From positions 1 to 39,097 of the forward strand of contig JAQVVD010000013.1 of the NCBI GenBank assembly GCA_028699155.1: DNA of 39,097 nucleotides, written 5' to 3'. The position numbers were made by a program, and so were the translations under genes. Below, piece after piece: positions 4,974 through 12,430 of the stretch (the stretch's first letter is position 1; every line of letters starts with the position of its first letter). Below the pieces are notes generated by a model that was not told where the DNA came from, did no database searches, and saw only the letters and a program-made list of their open reading frames with translations. This DNA comes from Candidatus Peribacteraceae bacterium (GTDB lineage Bacteria > Patescibacteriota > Gracilibacteria > Peribacterales > Peribacteraceae).

Positions 4974-5021
4974 GAGATTTTCTTGGGACGCGCGATCGAT
5001 TCCACCCTAGAATACCAGCCC

Positions 5022-7304
5022 ATGCCCGCTCCCGATCCCATCTTCGGACCATTGAATGAACCGCAGCAGGAAGCCGTAAAGAATAGTAACGGCCCGCTGC
5101 TCATTCTTGCCGGAGCAGGGAGCGGCAAAACGCGCGCGCTCACGCACCGCATCGCGTACCTGATGCAACAGGGAGTGCAACCCTGGCAGATACTCGCAGT
5201 GACATTCACGAACAAAGCGGCGAATGAAATGAAGGAACGCATCCGGGCGATGCTGCACATAACCGAGCAGGAGGATATGGCCGCCCGCTTCGGCATCAAC
5301 GGAATCACCACGAGCGGATCCGGCAGGCTGCCGACCATGGGAACGTTCCACTCCATCTGTGCGCGCATCCTGCGCCGCGACATCGAACACTTGGGACGCG
5401 AACGCTCCTTCGTGATTTACGATGGCGACGACCAGGTGAAACTCATGAAAGAAGTGCTGAAGGAAATGGGCGTGGACGAGAAAGAGCTGAAACCGAAGGC
5501 TGCTCTCTCGTACATCGGGCGTTTCAAGAGCGAAGCAATCAGCCCCAAGGAAGCTGCTGAGCAGGCATCCTCCGCGCGCCTGCAACAAGTTGCGCGCGCG
5601 TATGCGCTGTACCGAAAAGCGCTGCATGATGCGAACGCGCTCGATTTCGATGATCTGATCCTGGAAACGGTAAAACTCTTCCACGAATGCCCGAACATTC
5701 TGGATCGCTACCAGGAAACCTGGCGGTACCTGAACGTGGACGAGTATCAGGATACCAACCATGCGCAGTACCTCTTCATTACGCTGCTCGCCCAGAAGTA
5801 CAGGAACCTCTGCGTCATCGGCGATCCGGACCAGTCCATCTACGCATTCCGCGGCGCCGACATCCGCAACATCATGGAATTCAAGAAAGACTATGCAGAT
5901 GCGAAGGAGGTGAAACTCGAGCAGAATTACCGCTCCACGCAGGTAGTGCTGGATGCGGCAGACAGTGTCATCGCACTGAATCCCAACCGCCCGGAAAAGA
6001 AGATGTGGACGGAGAGGAAAGAGGGGCCAAAGCTCCTCCTGCACGAAGTGCGCGACGAGCGCGCGGAAGCGCAGGAAGCAATCAAGGCAGCGGAGAATAC
6101 GTGTGCGGACGGCGTTCCATTCAACGAGCAGGTCGTCCTGTACCGGACGAATGCACAATCCCGTCTGTTCGAAGAGGCATGCATGCGATCGGGAATCCCC
6201 TACCGCATCATTGGCGGGGTGAAGTTCTACGCACGCCGCGAAGTGAAGGATGTACTCGCGTATCTGCACGTGCTCCTGAATCCGAACGACACGGTAGCAC
6301 TGCTGCGAATCCTGAATGTCCCCACGCGCAAGATCGGGCTGACGACGCTGGGGAAACTCCAGGAACATGCCAACCGACATGGTCTGACATTCTGGGAGAC
6401 CCTGCAGAACGCCGAGAAAGTGCAATCGATAAACGCAGCGACGCTGGAACGCATAACAGCCTTCACGGAACTCATTGAACGGTATCGCAGCAAAACGGAG
6501 AAGGAGGTCGTATCACACCTGACCCTCAGTCTGCTCAACGCGTTGCATATGGAAAAATGGCTGCGCGACGACACACAGGAAGGGGAAGAGCGCTGGGAGA
6601 ACGTGCAGGAACTCATCACCGTGATGCACAAGTACGATTCCCTGGAACCCATGCTCTCTCTGACCAGCTTCCTGGAAGAAGCCGCACTCATCTCAGAAGT
6701 GGATGCACTGCAGGACAATACCAGCGATGCTCTGACGCTGATGACGCTGCACCTGTGCAAAGGGCTGGAATTCGAACACGTGATGATTGCAGGATGTGAG
6801 GAGGGAATATTCCCGCACAGCAACTGCCTCTTTGATAAAGAGCAACTGGAAGAAGAGTGCCGGCTCATGTACGTGGGAATGACGCGGGCGAAGACGCGCC
6901 TCACGCTCTTTCATGCGCGCAGCCGCATGCTCTGGGGAGAGACGCAGGCAAACGCGCCCAGCAGGTTTCTAGACGAACTACCGGAGAACATTCTGGAGCG
7001 GCGCAGCGACGATGTCCTGAGCGCATTTGCCTGGGCATCGAAAGCCGGCCAGCAGAAAGCTTTTAGCGGCATCGAGCCGTTCCGCCAGGAACACGCAAAC
7101 CTGGATGGCGTCGAATTCAACCAGGACATTTCGTTTGAGGAAGATATGAACCAGGAAACGCTGACGGAAGGGACGCGTATCCGGCACCCGTCATTCGGAA
7201 CAGGCACCATCCTCTCCAAAAGAGGCGACGTCGTCACCATTCAATTCGATTCGGGAGAACGCAAGAACTTTGCGCTGAGCATCGCGCCGCTCACGATCAT
7301 CTAG
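5022..7304 (+). CDS. pcrA: UvrD/PcrA-type superfamily 1 DNA helicase
   Basis: A 3'-5' DNA helicase for repair and for clearing proteins from DNA. The 760 residues carry the SF1A motifs in order: Q-motif LNEPQQEAV, Walker A AGAGSGKT (near 30-37), TFTNKAANEM, Walker B/motif II VDEYQDTN, motif III GDPDQSIYAFRGAD, motif IV QNYRST, motif V LMTLHLCKGLEFEHV, and motif VI YVGMTRAKTRL. The last 45 residues (GTRIRHPSFGTGTI...) are the PcrA-type Tudor-like tail that binds RNA polymerase in PcrA/UvrD. I prefer the ATG at 5022; an in-frame TTG at 4983 would add 13 residues with no family match. Its stop overlaps the convergent SLH gene in CTAG (7301-7304). Confidence 0.96.
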   Translation: MPAPDPIFGPLNEPQQEAVKNSNGPLLILAGAGSGKTRALTHRIAYLMQQGVQPWQILAVTFTNKAANEMKERIRAMLHITEQEDMAARFGINGITTSGSGRLPTMGTFHSICARILRRDIEHLGRERSFVIYDGDDQVKLMKEVLKEMGVDEKELKPKAALSYIGRFKSEAISPKEAAEQASSARLQQVARAYALYRKALHDANALDFDDLILETVKLFHECPNILDRYQETWRYLNVDEYQDTNHAQYLFITLLAQKYRNLCVIGDPDQSIYAFRGADIRNIMEFKKDYADAKEVKLEQNYRSTQVVLDAADSVIALNPNRPEKKMWTERKEGPKLLLHEVRDERAEAQEAIKAAENTCADGVPFNEQVVLYRTNAQSRLFEEACMRSGIPYRIIGGVKFYARREVKDVLAYLHVLLNPNDTVALLRILNVPTRKIGLTTLGKLQEHANRHGLTFWETLQNAEKVQSINAATLERITAFTELIERYRSKTEKEVVSHLTLSLLNALHMEKWLRDDTQEGEERWENVQELITVMHKYDSLEPMLSLTSFLEEAALISEVDALQDNTSDALTLMTLHLCKGLEFEHVMIAGCEEGIFPHSNCLFDKEQLEEECRLMYVGMTRAKTRLTLFHARSRMLWGETQANAPSRFLDELPENILERRSDDVLSAFAWASKAGQQKAFSGIEPFRQEHANLDGVEFNQDISFEEDMNQETLTEGTRIRHPSFGTGTILSKRGDVVTIQFDSGERKNFALSIAPLTII

Positions 7305-8980
7305 TATTCGAAGACCGTGGAGCGTACGACAGGCGTTTCCCCCGCAACCCAGTGGAATGACTGGCTTCCATCCGTCCAGCGCACTGCGCCGGCTTCCGCG
7401 ACGCTGCCGGGCTCGTTGAGGCGCAGCTGCAGCGATGCCTTCGAAGCGCCGGAGGGAATGCGCACATCCGCGTAGAGCGTAAGAATGCGCGGGCGGTCCT
7501 CAAATGAGCCGAAGATCACGGGGATATCGGAGCAGGTGATCTGGCTCCCGATGAGAGTGCAAGCGCTCCTTTCATTCGTGCCGTCAGCACCGAGCCAGAC
7601 GTTGTCCAGCGTGACGCCGCCGATCTGATCCGCCTGAATGACAAGCTCCGTCACCGCGAGATCAGGATTCTGTGCGCCCTCGGCAATGTGCCCGGCGAAA
7701 CGGAACGCACCGATGCGCATCTGGTTCCCCGCGAGGAGTATGGTGCGCGGACCTGAGGGATTGCTGATTTCTGTAATCGTAGACTGGGCAGTCTGAAAAA
7801 CTGGGAATGTGTCTGTGGAGTACGCCGATTGGTTCTTATTGTTCCATGCACCATTGCCTTCCACGCCTATACGTTGCACCTGCACCACGTCACCGCTCAC
7901 GCCACCGGCATGTATGGCTTTCACCACAGCACGAACATAGAAGGAGAATTCCTTCTCCTTCGGAATCGTCAATTTGCCGCGTTGCAGCGGCAGGCGATAC
8001 TCGATGAACGCCCCCTGCTGGACAGTATCCATGTATGCACGACCAAGCAGGCGCGTGTTCTCGTCATAGACGAGGAACGAATCGATGGATTGCACATCCA
8101 TGATTCTCACGACCACAGATGTGACGTCGAGAGGCTGAGCCTCACTGAAAATAGAAGCGCCGGCCAGCACGGGAGATACCTCACCAAGGGGAAGGAACTG
8201 CTGCATGACGACCGTATCGGAATCCGGATCCAGAGGATCCAGCTCCAGGACCGCGCCTGTGTTCTCGAGAAGAGGGAATACCTCGGCAGTATTCGAAGTA
8301 TCGGCTTGGTCCTGCTCCTCCTCCCCTGCATCAATCGGGATGTTCCCCTTCTCTGCAGCCGAGAGCGCAGCAAGTTCCCCATGAGACTGGGCAAGGAAAC
8401 GAACAACCAGCCGTGCCATATCCCCGCGAGTCAGGTACATCCCGGGGGCAGGATTCTCCGGCAGATTGATGCCGAGAGCATCGGCCACATTCAGGTAACG
8501 CTGGTACCACGGCCCCACGGTCGCAGTGGGATTGAGATTGAATACGACAGAAAGAATCTTCAGCGCTTCCACGTACTGCACAGTACGCGCAGGCTGGAAC
8601 TCCCAGAGCTCCGGAGCGATTCCCTCCTCCTGGTTCCCCTCTACGATACCCAGTGCCTTCGCCCTGCACACATGGGGTGCGTACCACTCATTCGCGAACA
8701 CGTCAGGAAAGCATGTGAGCTCATATGCAGGCTGCGTAGCAGCGGGAAGGAGCGTCATGGCAATCTTCAGGAACTCGGCACGGTTGAGAAATGCGCCGGG
8801 ACGGAACGTTCCATCCGGATTGCCCTCAACCACCCCCTCCTGCGTCAGGACGCTGATCGCAATAGCGGTAGATCTCTCTGTAGGCGCATCGCTGTATGGC
8901 AGATTGCTCGTGTCATACGTGCGCGCCGCCGCAACGGCGGGAAACAGGAAACAGCAAAGAAGCAAGAAGGTGTTTCGCAT
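7301..8980 (-). CDS. Secreted S-layer homology (SLH) domain protein
   Basis: A 559-residue exported protein. A signal peptide covers about 1-19. Three SLH modules follow: about 28-80 (SDAPTERSTAIAISVLTQEG, GNPDGTFRPGAFLNRAEFLKI), about 88-145 (CFPDVFANEWYAPHVCRAKALGI) and about 155-197 (WYQRYLNVADALGI, LTRGDMARLVVRFL). SLH domains usually anchor proteins to cell-wall polymers. An acidic Glu/Asp/Gln linker follows (about 205-245), then about 310 residues of beta-rich sequence without a family I can name. Four cysteines lie in the SLH region and two more pair-like Cys near 470-480. It lies 82 nt downstream of aroB on the same strand and may be read through from that unit, or use a TATACT box 10 nt before its ATG. 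Confidence 0.88.
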   Translation of the reverse strand: MRNTFLLLCCFLFPAVAAARTYDTSNLPYSDAPTERSTAIAISVLTQEGVVEGNPDGTFRPGAFLNRAEFLKIAMTLLPAATQPAYELTCFPDVFANEWYAPHVCRAKALGIVEGNQEEGIAPELWEFQPARTVQYVEALKILSVVFNLNPTATVGPWYQRYLNVADALGINLPENPAPGMYLTRGDMARLVVRFLAQSHGELAALSAAEKGNIPIDAGEEEQDQADTSNTAEVFPLLENTGAVLELDPLDPDSDTVVMQQFLPLGEVSPVLAGASIFSEAQPLDVTSVVVRIMDVQSIDSFLVYDENTRLLGRAYMDTVQQGAFIEYRLPLQRGKLTIPKEKEFSFYVRAVVKAIHAGGVSGDVVQVQRIGVEGNGAWNNKNQSAYSTDTFPVFQTAQSTITEISNPSGPRTILLAGNQMRIGAFRFAGHIAEGAQNPDLAVTELVIQADQIGGVTLDNVWLGADGTNERSACTLIGSQITCSDIPVIFGSFEDRPRILTLYADVRIPSGASKASLQLRLNEPGSVAEAGAVRWTDGSQSFHWVAGETPVVRSTVFEY

Positions 8981-9062: not shown

Positions 9063-10109
9063 TCACCTGCAGGCGGCAAGGAGCGCGGCTTTCGTTACGG
9101 GAAGCATGCTGCTCGTACCGATGGAGGGCGGCACGGCAATGCGCACGTCCCCGTCGCTCCGAACATTCTTGTCGCTCAGGATGACCTCCCAAATATCGCG
9201 CGCCTGCATGCCAACCGGCAAATCGATGGGCATGGAAAGCTGCGTGAGCAATGTTTCAATGCGATCATACGCCTCCGATCCGGCAATGCGCATTTCGATG
9301 AGCATGCCGATCCCTACCGCCTCCGCATGGGAGAGGGAAAAATGCGAGAGCGCCTCGATTGCATGCCCCACCGTGTGCCCGAAATTGAGCAGGAAAGCGG
9401 TCTGTCCGTCCTTTGCCCCACGCTCCAGGACATCAACCTTCGCATGCGCCGCATTCTGTACGCAGACTTCCAGCAGCTCCCGATCGCCCGCAAGGCACTG
9501 CTCCACATGCTCCTCCACCCAGCCGAAGAATTCTGCATCCGTCAGCGATGCAACCTTGAGAATTTCCACCAGCCCTTCCTCTATCTGATGCCTGGGGAGC
9601 TCCTGTAGGAACGACGTATCGGCGAGCACGGCGCTGGGATACCAGAGCGTGCCGACCATGTTCTTCACTTTGCCGACGTTCACGTACGTCTTCCCTCCGA
9701 TGGCGGCATCCGCCATGCCAAGCAGATTGGTCGGCACATGAATGCAGCGAATCCCGCGCGCAAACACGCTGGAAGTGAAACCGCCAAGATCGGTCACCAT
9801 CCCGCCGCCGACATTGATGAGCACACTGTGTGTGCTGGCATGGAGCAGAACCAGTTCCTCCACAATCCGTTCAACCTGCTCGAACGATTTGGAAGATTCG
9901 CCGCTGGGAATCGGAATGCTTGCAGCCTCCGGCAGGAGCGCCTGCACCTTCTCTGCAATGGGCTCAAGCGACGCATCGTAGAGAATGACGAGCAGATCTG
10001 CCTCCAGCTCCCCCGTGATGTGCGGCAACTCCTCCAGCGCTCCGTCGCCGACGACGACGGAGCATGTGCGCTGAGAGGATGCTGGCACTGTCAGGTGAAT
10101 CTCTTTCAC
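9063..10109 (-). CDS. aroB: 3-dehydroquinate synthase
   Basis: The second enzyme of the shikimate pathway, converting DAHP to 3-dehydroquinate with NAD+ and a divalent metal. The 348 residues fit the family length (about 350). Visible motifs are the NAD-binding GGGMVTDLGGFTSSVFARGI, then GGKTYVN, the metal ligand Glu in EEGLVEILK, and the two ligand histidines in LNFGHTVGHAIE and SHAEAVGIGM. The last is normally HGEAV, so an Ala replaces the Gly next to a ligand His. It sits 78 nt downstream of prephenate dehydratase and so falls under the Phe attenuator at 11,503-11,649 if the unit is one transcript. Sugar-cyclase relatives (2-deoxy-scyllo-inosose synthases) are a less likely alternative given the neighbours. 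Confidence 0.92.
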   Translation of the reverse strand: MKEIHLTVPASSQRTCSVVVGDGALEELPHITGELEADLLVILYDASLEPIAEKVQALLPEAASIPIPSGESSKSFEQVERIVEELVLLHASTHSVLINVGGGMVTDLGGFTSSVFARGIRCIHVPTNLLGMADAAIGGKTYVNVGKVKNMVGTLWYPSAVLADTSFLQELPRHQIEEGLVEILKVASLTDAEFFGWVEEHVEQCLAGDRELLEVCVQNAAHAKVDVLERGAKDGQTAFLLNFGHTVGHAIEALSHFSLSHAEAVGIGMLIEMRIAGSEAYDRIETLLTQLSMPIDLPVGMQARDIWEVILSDKNVRSDGDVRIAVPPSIGTSSMLPVTKAALLAACR

Positions 10110-10187: not shown

Positions 10188-11135
10188 TCATTGCGTCGCA
10201 GATGAATCTGAATTGACGCAGAGATTCCAGCTCCCCAGCCATTTCACCTCCTGAATGGCAGGATGTGCATCAAGCTGGTCAGCAAGAATGTGCAACTCTC
10301 TGGGGGATCCCTCGCGCTGCATCTCAACATAGAACGTGTACTGCTTCTCGCCGATCGCACGGCTGTGAAGCGACGTCAGATCAACGCGCGCATTCGCAAT
10401 CATGCTGGTGATCAGCCCCAGAACACCGCGCCTGTTCTCGGGTGTCACCAACGCCGCATGCCGTTCTGCCTCCGCAAATGGGAGATGATTCTCTGGATTT
10501 TGGTGCACCATGAAGAACTGCGTAATATTTTGAGCAGCGGGCAAATCAGCGACATCTTCCGCAAGAACGTTCAGATTCAGCTCCTGCAAAGCAATGCGAG
10601 ACGACAGGCATATCGATTCCGGGTCGCCGGAATGCGCAATGTGTTTCGCCGCCATGGCCGTGTTAGGCATCGGATGCTCCCCCAGCTCCACTGGGAAGCC
10701 CCGTCGGATGAACGTACGGCATTGATCCAGTCCTTTCTGATGGGAATAGACGTGCCTGGCAGAAGAAAGATCCGATCCTGGGACGCCGCCGGCACACATA
10801 CTGACCTGAAGGTTCGCTTCTCCCACGATACGCACGGCCTTGCTCCGAAAATGATCGAGATGCGGCCACACAATCCCGCCAGATGAATTCTCTATTGGAA
10901 TGAGGCCGTATTCTCCGCTCTCCACTGCCCCCCAAACTTCATCAATATGACCGTGATAATCGATGGCCATCGAAGGATGAGCAGCCTGCAGCATGCGAGC
11001 AGCCTGATCAGAGAACGAATACTTTTCGAGCGCGTGTAACCTCATATTGGAAGGCAGTACCAGATTGGAGGAAGCGGCAGTGTCTCCATACGAATCAGAG
11101 GTGCAATCCGGAGAAGAGAGTGAGGGAGTAGTCAT
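10188..11135 (-). CDS. pheA: Prephenate dehydratase with C-terminal ACT domain
   Basis: Converts prephenate to phenylpyruvate, the committed step to phenylalanine. From ATG 11135 the protein has 315 residues. A 30-residue Ser/Thr-rich N-terminus is followed by the catalytic domain (about 31-210) with YSFSDQAARML, LIPIENSSGGIVW (78-90) and AAQNITQFFMV. The ACT regulatory domain spans about 228-308, with RRGVLGLITSM and HSRAIGEKQYTFYVEM. Two substitutions stand out: the catalytic Thr-Arg-Phe is Thr-Gln-Phe (T205-Q206-F207), and the Phe-binding ESRP of the ACT domain reads HSRA. The gene is monofunctional; a chorismate mutase-like gene is divergent on the other side of the promoter region. An in-frame ATG at 11045 is an alternative start. 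Confidence 0.88.
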   Translation of the reverse strand: MTTPSLSSPDCTSDSYGDTAASSNLVLPSNMRLHALEKYSFSDQAARMLQAAHPSMAIDYHGHIDEVWGAVESGEYGLIPIENSSGGIVWPHLDHFRSKAVRIVGEANLQVSMCAGGVPGSDLSSARHVYSHQKGLDQCRTFIRRGFPVELGEHPMPNTAMAAKHIAHSGDPESICLSSRIALQELNLNVLAEDVADLPAAQNITQFFMVHQNPENHLPFAEAERHAALVTPENRRGVLGLITSMIANARVDLTSLHSRAIGEKQYTFYVEMQREGSPRELHILADQLDAHPAIQEVKWLGSWNLCVNSDSSATQ

Positions 11136-11160
11136 AGAAAAATGGGAAATGGGAAATACA

Positions 11161-11481
11161 TTACCGATCGTCATGCAGGCGCGCCTGCCGAAGAAGATCG
11201 TGCAGCATGATTTCACGAACCTTCTGCTGACCTGCTGCCTGCAGTACTTGTAAATGAAGAACGAGCGTAGCCTCATCAGGAAAAACGAGAGGAGAACTCC
11301 CGTTCCTTTCGTAGAGGAAGGACGTACGCAATACAACATGGCCATGGAGCAATAAATGGTGAATTGCCTCTCGGTCTGGCACAGAGACGCCTTCGATCGG
11401 CAGCGAAGAGATTGGATCGGACTGATCGGACACTGCGCCCCGTTCAGTGCATGGTTCTGAAGAAAATGTGACGGTAGACAT
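11161..11481 (-). CDS. Unknown 106-aa protein, first gene after the Phe attenuator
   Basis: Lies between the attenuator terminator and pheA: its ATG is 21 nt past the T-tract and its stop is 25 nt before the pheA start, so it is well placed to be the first structural gene of the unit. The N-terminal 30 residues are Ser/Thr/Asp-rich and low in structure, resembling the N-terminus of the following PheA (both read M-[ST]-T-x-[ST]-x-S-S-x-x-C-T). The C-terminal half (about 36-106) is predicted helical, with VLHLQVLQAAGQQKVREIML. I recognise no family. It may instead be untranslated leader; codon choice looks ordinary and the frame is open for its full length. Confidence 0.5.
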   Translation of the reverse strand: MSTVTFSSEPCTERGAVSDQSDPISSLPIEGVSVPDREAIHHLLLHGHVVLRTSFLYERNGSSPLVFPDEATLVLHLQVLQAAGQQKVREIMLHDLLRQARLHDDR

Positions 11482-11502
11482 AGAATGAAAGAAAAAATAA
11501 AT

Positions 11503-11540
11503 ACAAAAACCCCGCCTCGGTCGTAGGGAGGGAGAAGGAG
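11503..11540 (-). terminator. Attenuator terminator of the pheA-aroB unit, with competing antiterminator segment
   Basis: On the reverse strand the arm CCCTCCCT (11525-11532) pairs with AGGCGGGG (11510-11517) around a 7-nt loop, with one C-C mismatch, and is followed by TTTTT (11505-11509) and more T. The segment CTCCTTCTCCCTCC (11527-11540), which includes most of the 5' arm, is complementary over 13 pairs with a single bulged T to GGAGGGGAAGGAG (11587-11599) inside the leader-peptide gene. The two structures exclude each other, as in ribosome-controlled attenuation. Confidence 0.85.
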
Positions 11541-11565
11541 GTGCGAATCCGCGTGAATCAGTCTC

Positions 11566-11649
11566 TTAGTAGCTCAGACGCATCAGCTCCTTCCCCTCCA
11601 TAAAATAGGAGAACTGGAAGGTGCCGAAGATAAACGTCTGGCGCGACAT
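11566..11649 (-). CDS. Phe-rich leader peptide of the pheA-aroB unit (attenuator peptide)
   Basis: A 27-residue ORF with Phe at positions 6, 8, 11, 13 and 16 and Tyr at 15 and 27, ending in TAA at 11566-11568. Its start codon is only 10 nt past the -10 box, so translation would be leaderless or nearly so. A 6-bp stem (TGGCGC/GCGCCA) can form around the start codon. The Phe codons lie just before the segment (codons 17-22) that can pair with the terminator's 5' arm. A ribosome starved for Phe-tRNA would leave that segment free and allow antitermination; a ribosome reaching the stop would let the terminator form. This is the logic of E. coli pheL, but the peptide is not obviously homologous to PheL. 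It resembles the divergent leader at 11751-11801 (shared F-[IV]-F-G-[ST]-F). Confidence 0.85.
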   Translation of the reverse strand: MSRQTFIFGTFQFSYFMEGKELMRLSY

Positions 11650-11659
11650 GTGTGCGCCA

Positions 11660-11687
11660 ATTGTACGATTCGAATCTCCTCTGTCAA
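11660..11687 (-). promoter_or_regulatory. Promoter of the leader/pheA/aroB unit
   Basis: Consensus -35 TTGACA (11682-11687 on the reverse strand), 16-nt spacer, -10 TACAAT (11660-11665). The leader peptide ATG follows 10 nt later. It is back to back with the forward promoter at 11713-11741; the two -35 boxes are 25 nt apart. Confidence 0.85.
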
Positions 11688-11712
11688 GAAGGAGAGTCAT
11701 TTCGAAGCCTGT

Positions 11713-11741
11713 TTGACAGCATCACCATAGGAACGTATATA
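11713..11741 (+). promoter_or_regulatory. Promoter of the leader/chorismate mutase/rsmA unit
   Basis: Consensus -35 TTGACA (11713-11718), 17-nt spacer, -10 TATATA (11736-11741). The forward leader peptide ATG is 9 nt downstream, again suggesting a leaderless message. Confidence 0.87.
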
Positions 11742-11750
11742 CTGAAGGCG

Positions 11751-11801
11751 ATGCAGGCAAAGGCCTTCGTATTCGGTTCCTTTTATACCTTCTTCCAGTA
11801 G
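11751..11801 (+). CDS. Phe-rich leader peptide of the chorismate mutase unit (attenuator peptide)
   Basis: A 16-residue ORF with Phe at positions 6, 8, 11, 14 and 15 and Tyr at 12, ending in TAG (11799-11801). Five of 16 codons specify Phe. The stop codon overlaps AGAGGGG (11800-11806), which is perfectly complementary to CCCCTCT (11850-11856) in the 5' arm of the downstream terminator. Ribosomes that reach the stop would cover this segment and permit termination; stalling at the earlier Phe codons would expose it. The peptide shares the order F6-[IV]-F8-G9-[ST]-F11 with the reverse leader at 11566-11649, suggesting that one attenuator arose from the other. Confidence 0.85.
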   Translation: MQAKAFVFGSFYTFFQ

Positions 11802-11847
11802 AGGGGCGGAACCGCAGAACCTAAGAAAGCACTCCGAAAATCGTTCT

Positions 11848-11876
11848 CACCCCTCTGCAGAGACTGAGGTGTTTTT
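11848..11876 (+). terminator. Attenuator terminator before the chorismate mutase gene
   Basis: CACC...TC pairs with GA-GGTG across a loop that contains CTCTGCAGAG, followed directly by TTTTT (11872-11876) and CTGT. It sits 47 nt after the leader peptide stop and 20 nt before the structural gene, the expected place for an attenuator. Its 5' arm (11850-11856) has the alternative partner at 11800-11806. Confidence 0.75.
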
Positions 11877-11896
11877 CTGTATTCCCCGAAAGAAGC

Positions 11897-12430
11897 ATGA
11901 TCGAGAAAAGTCAGGCAGATGCGGCAGCGCTCAAACGGCTCAGAGATGAGATCGATACGGCGGATGCAGATCTCATCCGGGCAATCGGAACGGAACAGGG
12001 AAACGGAGAGTTCGCGGCCGCGCGCGTGGAATTCACGCGCGCATTTCAGAGGCTATTCGGTGGAAATACGCAAGCGACGCAGGAAGCGGCACACCTGCTT
12101 CATACACTGGAACAGAACCTGCCACGGCCTCCGAGTGGAACTGCCATACGGGCATTGCTCCGGGGGTTTGCTGCACGAGCGAGAGTCCGCATGCACAAGA
12201 ACGTTACCAGAGACCTCGATCGCGAAGCGGCAGTAACGAATACGTGGAAGCAAAATGCGGAAGTGAGCGGCGTGGACCCGGCAACCGCAGTAGCCATCTT
12301 CCAGATGATTCTTGCGACATCGATCCGTATGCAGGAGTTGCAAATTCAAGGTACGCTAGCCGCATGCAAGGAGAAAGAAGCCTCAGCGAAACAGTCCGGC
12401 AATTCTGCGCCGCACATCATTTGCACCTGA
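11897..12430 (+). CDS. Chorismate mutase-like protein (AroQ fold) with a mid-helix insertion
   Basis: Probably converts chorismate to prephenate. The first helix starts with LKRLRDEIDTADADLIRAI (12-30), the AroQ signature with its active-site Arg (R16). After about 50 extra residues the family pattern resumes: IRALLRGFAARARVRMHKNV (84-103), with the second Arg and the Lys, then RDLDREAAV (105-113) with the Asp/Glu positions, and GVDPATAVAIFQMILATSIRMQ (125-136 for the end) with the terminal Ser/Gln. At 177 residues it is about twice the size of a minimal AroQ domain because of the insertion (about 31-83). The Phe attenuator upstream supports the assignment independently. Its 3' end overlaps rsmA by 67 nt. 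Confidence 0.75.
   Translation: MIEKSQADAAALKRLRDEIDTADADLIRAIGTEQGNGEFAAARVEFTRAFQRLFGGNTQATQEAAHLLHTLEQNLPRPPSGTAIRALLRGFAARARVRMHKNVTRDLDREAAVTNTWKQNAEVSGVDPATAVAIFQMILATSIRMQELQIQGTLAACKEKEASAKQSGNSAPHIICT

Follow-up and report, generated by a model that had tools for sequence, protein, structure and literature searches.

The window analysed here is a stretch of 39,097 nt (contig JAQVVD010000013.1) from a host genome of 44 contigs and 1.18 Mb placed in Candidatus Peribacteraceae (Peregrinibacteria, CPR); a first-pass annotation made from the letters had correctly guessed a CPR bacterium. A KsgA-based search of named genomes returned about 47 Peribacteraceae, Peribacteria and Peregrinibacteria MAGs as nearest relatives, and with the prephenate dehydratase (PDT) protein as direct query the same collection gave no match. 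The intergenic region 11482-11896 contains two promoters placed back to back; a Phe-rich ORF begins within about 10 nt of each, and a hairpin with a T run comes after the ORF. To the left, on the reverse strand, lie a 106-aa ORF (11161-11481), PDT (10188-11345; PF00800, 5.4e-34) and the 3-dehydroquinate synthase gene aroB (9063-10109). The 106-aa ORF, the first after the reverse leader, has no family match and overlaps the longest PDT ORF, whose true start is probably internal, near 11137. To the right, on the forward strand, a chorismate-mutase-like (CM-like) gene (11897-12430; CM_2, E 2.2e-7) is followed by ksgA and a comEC-like gene. The CM_2 match spans the C-terminal half of the profile only and no solved-structure relative was found by sequence, so the assignment as a chorismate mutase is probable. 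The earlier suggestion that the downstream genes fit Phe synthesis holds for PDT, aroB and the CM-like gene in the window, and for PDT, CM-like and DAHP synthase genes in relatives. An SLH-domain surface protein (7301-8980) and a PcrA-like helicase (4983-7304) adjoin the aro genes, and similar neighbours occur at loci of two other genomes (G096 and G012).

Two divergent leaders

In every leader of the first set compared, region 1 lies in the regulatory codons, region 2 follows soon after, and regions 3 and 4 are the 5' and 3' arms of the terminator; the 1:2, 2:3 and 3:4 helices are present in each of these leaders and are mutually exclusive. The PDT-side leader is encoded on the reverse strand. 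Its promoter, found by a promoter scan, has 11/12 matches (TTGACA, 11682-11687; TACAAT, 11660-11665; spacing 16); the -10 hexamer ends 10 nt before the start codon, and the transcript is expected to be near-leaderless. The leader ORF (11566-11649; MSRQTFIFGTFQFSYFMEGKELMRLSY, then a stop codon) has 27 aa, including 5 Phe, and is kept in relatives. Region 1 (TCGGCACC, 11620-11627) lies inside the Phe-codon block. Region 2 comprises a part that pairs with region 1 (GGAGCTGA, 11583-11590) and the antiterminator 5' arm (GGGGAAGGAG, 11587-11596); region 3, the antiterminator 3' arm (CTCCTTCTCC, 11531-11540), overlaps the 5' arm of the terminator. In the 2:3 helix, 11596-11587 pairs with 11540-11531 over 10 continuous bp, or 13 with a bulge. 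The 3:4 hairpin at 11509-11542 folds with -9.2 kcal/mol and has its T run at 11509-11505.

The CM-side leader has the same order of elements on the forward strand. Its hexamers were read directly (TTGACA, 11713-11718; TATATA, 11736-11741; spacing 17), with the -10 hexamer 9 nt before the start codon and TATACT at spacing 19 as an alternative; the promoter scanner did not report this promoter. The ORF (11751-11801; MQAKAFVFGSFYTFFQ, then a stop codon) has 16 aa, again with 5 Phe. Region 1 (TCGGTTCC, 11773-11780) can form 7 pairs with GGAACCGC of region 2 (11808-11815), and the antiterminator 5' arm (GTAGAGGGG, 11798-11806), which overlaps the stop codon, pairs with region 3 (CCCCTCTGC, 11850-11858). 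The terminator hairpin (11848-11871) is weak, at -5.2 kcal/mol, and is followed by a T run at 11872-11876. Both ORFs and both 2:3 helices lie where the first-pass annotation had put them. Its back-to-back consensus promoters are borne out on the reverse side, whereas the forward one is less perfect; the T-tract terminators it described are present on both sides but modest, with T5 each, and a simple terminator scan detected neither.

Conservation and amino-acid classes in Peribacteraceae

Phe-rich short ORFs are not rare: several others in the window's ORF list are as rich. The two leaders alone are therefore compatible with chance, and Phe richness by itself was rejected as evidence. Conservation in relatives excludes chance. 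At PDT loci of relatives, recovered with the PDT protein, similar leaders are visible by eye, for example in G016 (MTTQIFSFGFSFFPFSAGKKPMRLK and another ending in LPQTFFYGFSYFSYLMGKVPYCVRS) and G043 (MSARTFAFGFTSFSFSAGKEPMCLS and MPQRVTFYGFFYSFYLAGKKSYDA). Ten aligned leaders of six genomes served to build a covariance model (R1); both window leaders are in this seed and so match by construction, while the remaining genomes are free of that. R1 matches 66/74 family genomes at E <= 0.1, dozens of them below 1e-10, and often finds two or three neighbouring leaders; these E-values are rough, owing to a short calibration. At the lenient E <= 0.1, leaders occur in 38 of 40 sampled genera. In a class-wide sample of 242 genomes at E <= 1e-4, 31 family genomes match, and the approximately 198 genomes outside the family gave a single marginal match. 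The leader at named ksgA loci usually adjoins ksgA and diverges from it, and R1 matched none of the 11 non-Peribacteria ksgA loci.

Two side observations come from other members of the class. At L025:158, a locus with a PDT-like match in one genome of another family (G056), the leader MKTTTISSQSFFFSYFYYSRGK is accompanied by a strong GAGGAAAGTAG/CTACTTTCCTC antiterminator; this may be an attenuator outside Peribacteraceae that is either related or convergent. The PDT matches at L027 (G067), L018 and L023 carry 6-11 in-frame TGA codons, and we take these to be class members in which TGA is recoded. Such recoding is known for some Gracilibacteria and Absconditabacteria.

The mirrored arrangement, which the first-pass annotation had singled out as undescribed, is not the essential feature of the system. 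G016 and G043 have all four elements on the same strand, in the order leader 1, PDT, leader 2 and CM, and ksgA diverges from leader 1. The closest homologue of the CM-like gene of the window is found in G037, where it has a location of its own, likewise behind a Phe leader. Because relatives carry the pair in tandem, a function for the mirrored arrangement as such was discarded, and the tandem leaders together with the separate homologue indicate that the mirrored pair is best read as a local rearrangement. A shared plan and motif favour the claim that the two leaders are paralogous, but duplication and convergence imposed by a common structural constraint are hard to separate in 25 codons.

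The same attenuator design occurs with Leu codons before leuA. R1 also matched Leu-codon leaders, among them MQQKGLLLGLLLLLLTEGGRLRA in the host genome, 53 nt before a leuA match; a Leu model (R2) found strong Leu leaders in 46 family genomes, and 13 Leu leaders stand directly before leuA genes, 32-303 nt away. The design probably also serves Ser before serA and Pro before proB. Ser-rich leaders precede serA at 9/12 loci; eight share [MV]N[GST][AS]Y[VI]LxC[AS]P[VI]SS, including MNSAYVLNCSPVSSWSSL of the host, and the ninth, from G013, is VTCQRSSSSCSCSSSSRKGCVGA. Pro leaders (...FTPPRAG...) occur upstream of proB at several loci, with MQRTLSSFVPCPPPPRGRR in the host. Ser and Pro leaders were chosen by codon counts and by eye upstream of selected genes, without a shuffled control, which makes these classes less secure than Phe and Leu; the names LeuA, ProB and SerA denote best matches (NCBIfam, Pfam), mostly below curated cut-offs. 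With Phe, Leu, probable Ser and probable Pro leaders, the host genome carries all four classes, and the Phe-attenuator account of the first-pass annotation is supported as one case of a wider system in the same genome.

Promoters are a common property of the leaders. Among 74 leaders, 65 have a promoter with at least 8/12 matches upstream. The distance from the end of the -10 box to the start codon is 5-12 nt in 72%, compared with 6% for shuffled upstream sequences; start codons were picked by rule, and some leaders have more than one candidate. Transcription usually starts 6-8 nt past the -10 box, so this spacing leaves almost no 5' UTR, which suggests that the leader ORFs are leaderless or nearly so. 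The lack of a Shine-Dalgarno motif was dropped as a special mark of the leaders, because long ORFs at the same loci also lack one; in the window hardly any long ORF carries such a motif (0-2 of 43). A TANNNT box lies about 7-10 nt before the start codon at several structural genes (3837, 8980 and 10109 on the reverse strand, 30754), and leaderless mRNAs may be common in the family.

Alternative helices and predicted switching

Column-wise covariation was assessed in an alignment of ten sequences made from sequence only. Helix 1:2 is 86% paired with 10 both-side changes, a value reached by 0/500 shuffles, and slid registers give at most 61% paired. A compensatory example is TCGGC-GCCGA, with a Phe codon, against ACGGC-GCCGT, with a Tyr codon. 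In the same alignment the core of helix 2:3 is nearly invariant and its covariation signal is weaker and approached by some slid registers, for which reason exchanging arms between leaders gives the better evidence for this helix. In that test, pairing energy within each of 74 leaders was compared with the energy after arms had been exchanged between leaders. Arm windows were set by codon position and the T run, without pairing information. The boundary between regions 3 and 4 was moved after the outcome of a first run had been seen, with the position of the L008 terminator 5' arm relative to the T run as reference; with the first boundaries the 3:4 signal was absent and the 2:4 control caught 2:3 pairing, while the 1:2 windows were unchanged between the runs and gave an identical outcome. 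The own partner pairs better in 2:3 (z -11.9), 1:2 (z -10.0) and 3:4 (z -6.8), each with 0/20000 permutations, counts that are not strict probabilities as the test ignores shared ancestry. Relatedness should improve the fit of swapped partners and thus weaken the signal. The controls 1:3, 2:4 and 1:4 display no own-partner preference across the 74 leaders (|z| <= 0.6). The upper part of 2:3 has wholly different sequences between orthologues while maintaining pairing: TATTGCGT/ACGCAATA in G016, CGTATG/CATACG in G043 and TATAGTC/GACTATA in G033. The Phe codons and both competing helices, whose conservation in related genomes the first-pass annotation had made decisive, are thus kept with compensatory changes, most strongly for 1:2 by alignment columns and for 2:3 by exchanged arms.

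These helices bear on a rival reading in which the short ORFs encode small hydrophobic peptides with a protein-level role in the membrane or in signalling and the hairpins are incidental. The peptides are indeed hydrophobic and have a recurring motif, [FY]-G-F ... G-K, but the codons for G and GK lie in the RNA arms of 1:2 and 2:3, and those arms co-vary. The leader ORF of G037_1 and that of the CM-leader orthologue in G037 end ahead of the GGGGAAGG or GAAGGAG arm, yet the arm persists in the RNA, so what is conserved there is the RNA and not the peptide. Phe is moreover swapped for Leu, Ser or Pro to suit the downstream gene. A peptide function of this kind is accordingly most improbable, and we continue with the leaders as regulatory RNAs.

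Folding with a ribosome placed at successive codons was proposed in the first-pass annotation. We modelled the footprint by masking the RNA to 15 nt past the start of the A-site codon and computed pair probabilities; the choice of leaders, the arm windows and the 15-nt footprint are cut-offs of our own, with one setting each. At the middle regulatory codon the median P(anti) is 0.75 and the median P(term) 0.00, and the antiterminator is favoured in 64/74 leaders; the remaining 10 do not favour it in this simple model. With the ribosome at the stop codon the median P(term) is 0.93 and the terminator is favoured in 74/74, an outcome partly built in, as the terminator was defined from the stop-codon fold. 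The informative part of the modelled folding is therefore the change along the codons: in most leaders the antiterminator gives way to the terminator where the regulatory block ends. The expected pattern, antiterminator at Phe or Leu codons and terminator at the stop codon, is thereby reproduced. Most Ser and Pro leaders also adopt alternative structures in the footprint model; no clear antiterminator at the middle codon was seen there for the Ser leaders of G096, G093 and G098 and for some Pro leaders.

Relatives show cleaner predicted switching than the window's forward leader. Together with the weak terminator, this suggests that the element on the CM side may work inefficiently or be in decay. 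It could even be a decayed remnant, with the PDT attenuator alone functional, as the hairpin energy, the imperfect -10 box and the low predicted P(anti) would have it; its 1:2 and 2:3 arms are intact, however, and the CM-like orthologue in G037 also lies behind a short 16-aa leader (MISQGILYGFSYPSFT). We regard complete loss of function as unlikely, and treat both window elements as attenuators below.

A genuine switch could also work without amino-acid-specific stalling, for example if the leader RNA were bound by a riboswitch ligand, by a protein or, in the manner of a T-box, by tRNA, and terminator/antiterminator alternatives alone would fit such sensors. The antiterminating positions, however, match the regulatory codons and do not extend past the last one, and codon identity tracks the pathway. 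No Rfam 15 family, leader families such as Phe_leader and Leu_leader included, scored above its gathering threshold either in the window or at any of 10 related loci, the intergenic region gave chance-level matches only against Rfam, and the T-box covariance model found no match in the window, the intergenic region or the 10 related loci. A sensor of another kind is very unlikely, and the elements work like the Rfam leader families yet belong to none of them.

Attenuation model and known systems

Both window elements are thus very probably ribosome-mediated transcription attenuators that sense charged tRNA-Phe, a model that draws on predicted Phe-codon-rich ORFs directly after promoters, conservation, mutually exclusive and co-varying helices, a terminator (weak on the forward side), footprint switching and matching pathway genes downstream. 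From these we infer ribosome stalling, termination and the response to starvation. The promoter abuts the leader ORF, so the first codons of the transcript would be those of the leader peptide. With little Phe-tRNA available, the ribosome would stall in the Phe block and cover region 1; region 2 (GGGGAAGG...) would then pair with region 3 (...CCTTCCCC) and block the terminator, and the PDT/aroB or CM genes would be transcribed. With plentiful Phe the ribosome would reach the stop codon and cover region 2, leaving regions 3 and 4 to form the terminator. Without translation the 1:2 hairpin would sequester region 2, again permitting termination. The two leaders belong to a Peribacteraceae-wide set in which regulatory codons (Phe, Leu, and probably Ser and Pro) are exchanged on one structural plan.

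Ribosome-mediated attenuation is a known kind of mechanism. The leader-peptide attenuators of Enterobacteria include pheL/pheM and trpL/leuL. They share with the present leaders a codon-rich short ORF, the 1:2/2:3/3:4 alternatives, a terminator before the operon and cognate synthesis targets. The Peribacteraceae leaders differ in their CPR phylum, in ORFs that abut the promoter, in the lack of an Rfam match at the gathering score and in the reuse of a single plan for Phe, Leu and probably also Ser and Pro. Mycobacteria have leaderless polycysteine uORF attenuators. Leader-peptide attenuators are also described in Actinobacteria (PMC1262725); these and the mycobacterial cases likewise represent leader-peptide attenuation outside Proteobacteria, the mycobacterial short ORFs being leaderless too, but, compared by description only, they involve other amino acids and other targets. 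In Bacillus, histidine leader peptides precede hisS paralogues (Naville and Gautheret 2010, PMC2965389); as here, related leaders stand before paralogous genes outside Proteobacteria, but for His only. That report knew leader-peptide systems only from Proteobacteria and Actinobacteria, plus its own Firmicutes case. Salmonella mgtCBR has proline-codon leader ORFs (PMC3641672); there leader translation steers alternative hairpins with Pro codons involved, as here, while the targets are Mg2+ transport and virulence genes, unlike proline synthesis here. A search of open-access journal literature found no paper on attenuation in CPR/Patescibacteria. What is new is the lineage, the interchangeable amino-acid classes and the persistence in genomes without detected leuA or PDT. 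To our knowledge, Ser and Pro leaders before biosynthetic genes have no precedent.

The usual picture of CPR bacteria is one of amino-acid auxotrophy and sparse regulation. For the first Peribacteria genomes, synthesis of Ala, Ser and Gly only was reported (PMC4736985). The present leaders extend leader-peptide attenuation to a deep-branching uncultured group and would place it before early or committed steps of Phe and Leu, and probably Ser and Pro, synthesis in a CPR family. The genes behind Phe leaders include PDT, CM-like and DAHP synthase genes; several of these leaders are instead followed by small genes of unknown function. PF00800 was detected in 25/74 family genomes, and many genomes with Phe leaders are without a detected PDT; there the leaders precede small uncharacterised proteins, CM-like genes or DAHP synthase. 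Among the 46 genomes with Leu leaders, leuA was undetected in 26. This points to small uncharacterised proteins that, where PDT or leuA was not detected, seem to be under the control of Phe or Leu supply. We offer a tentative reading, plausible rather than probable, in which Peribacteraceae use one interchangeable plan with near-leaderless ORFs for several amino acids, including Ser at serA and Pro at proB, and in which retained Phe and Leu attenuators control conserved small proteins after biosynthetic loss, perhaps sensing external supply. If so, attenuation in putative symbionts may have become a sensor of externally supplied amino acids.

Some further observations concern the genes behind these leaders. 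In genomes without detected leuA, Leu leaders precede small uncharacterised proteins (L210-L239, L077, L104, L113), several of which (L219, L220, L229, L231, L233) share, by eye, an R[YFM]xxxERxMMRxxGIxVxxP-like motif. Two other leaders, MRLWTLVYRACSYRFTAGSAMTCADHS and MRLWTLVYRDFSHPFTTGSAMACADHS, occur at L101:502 and L107 (G088, G090), and at L101 the next ORF begins, by eye, like a LysE/RhtB-type exporter.
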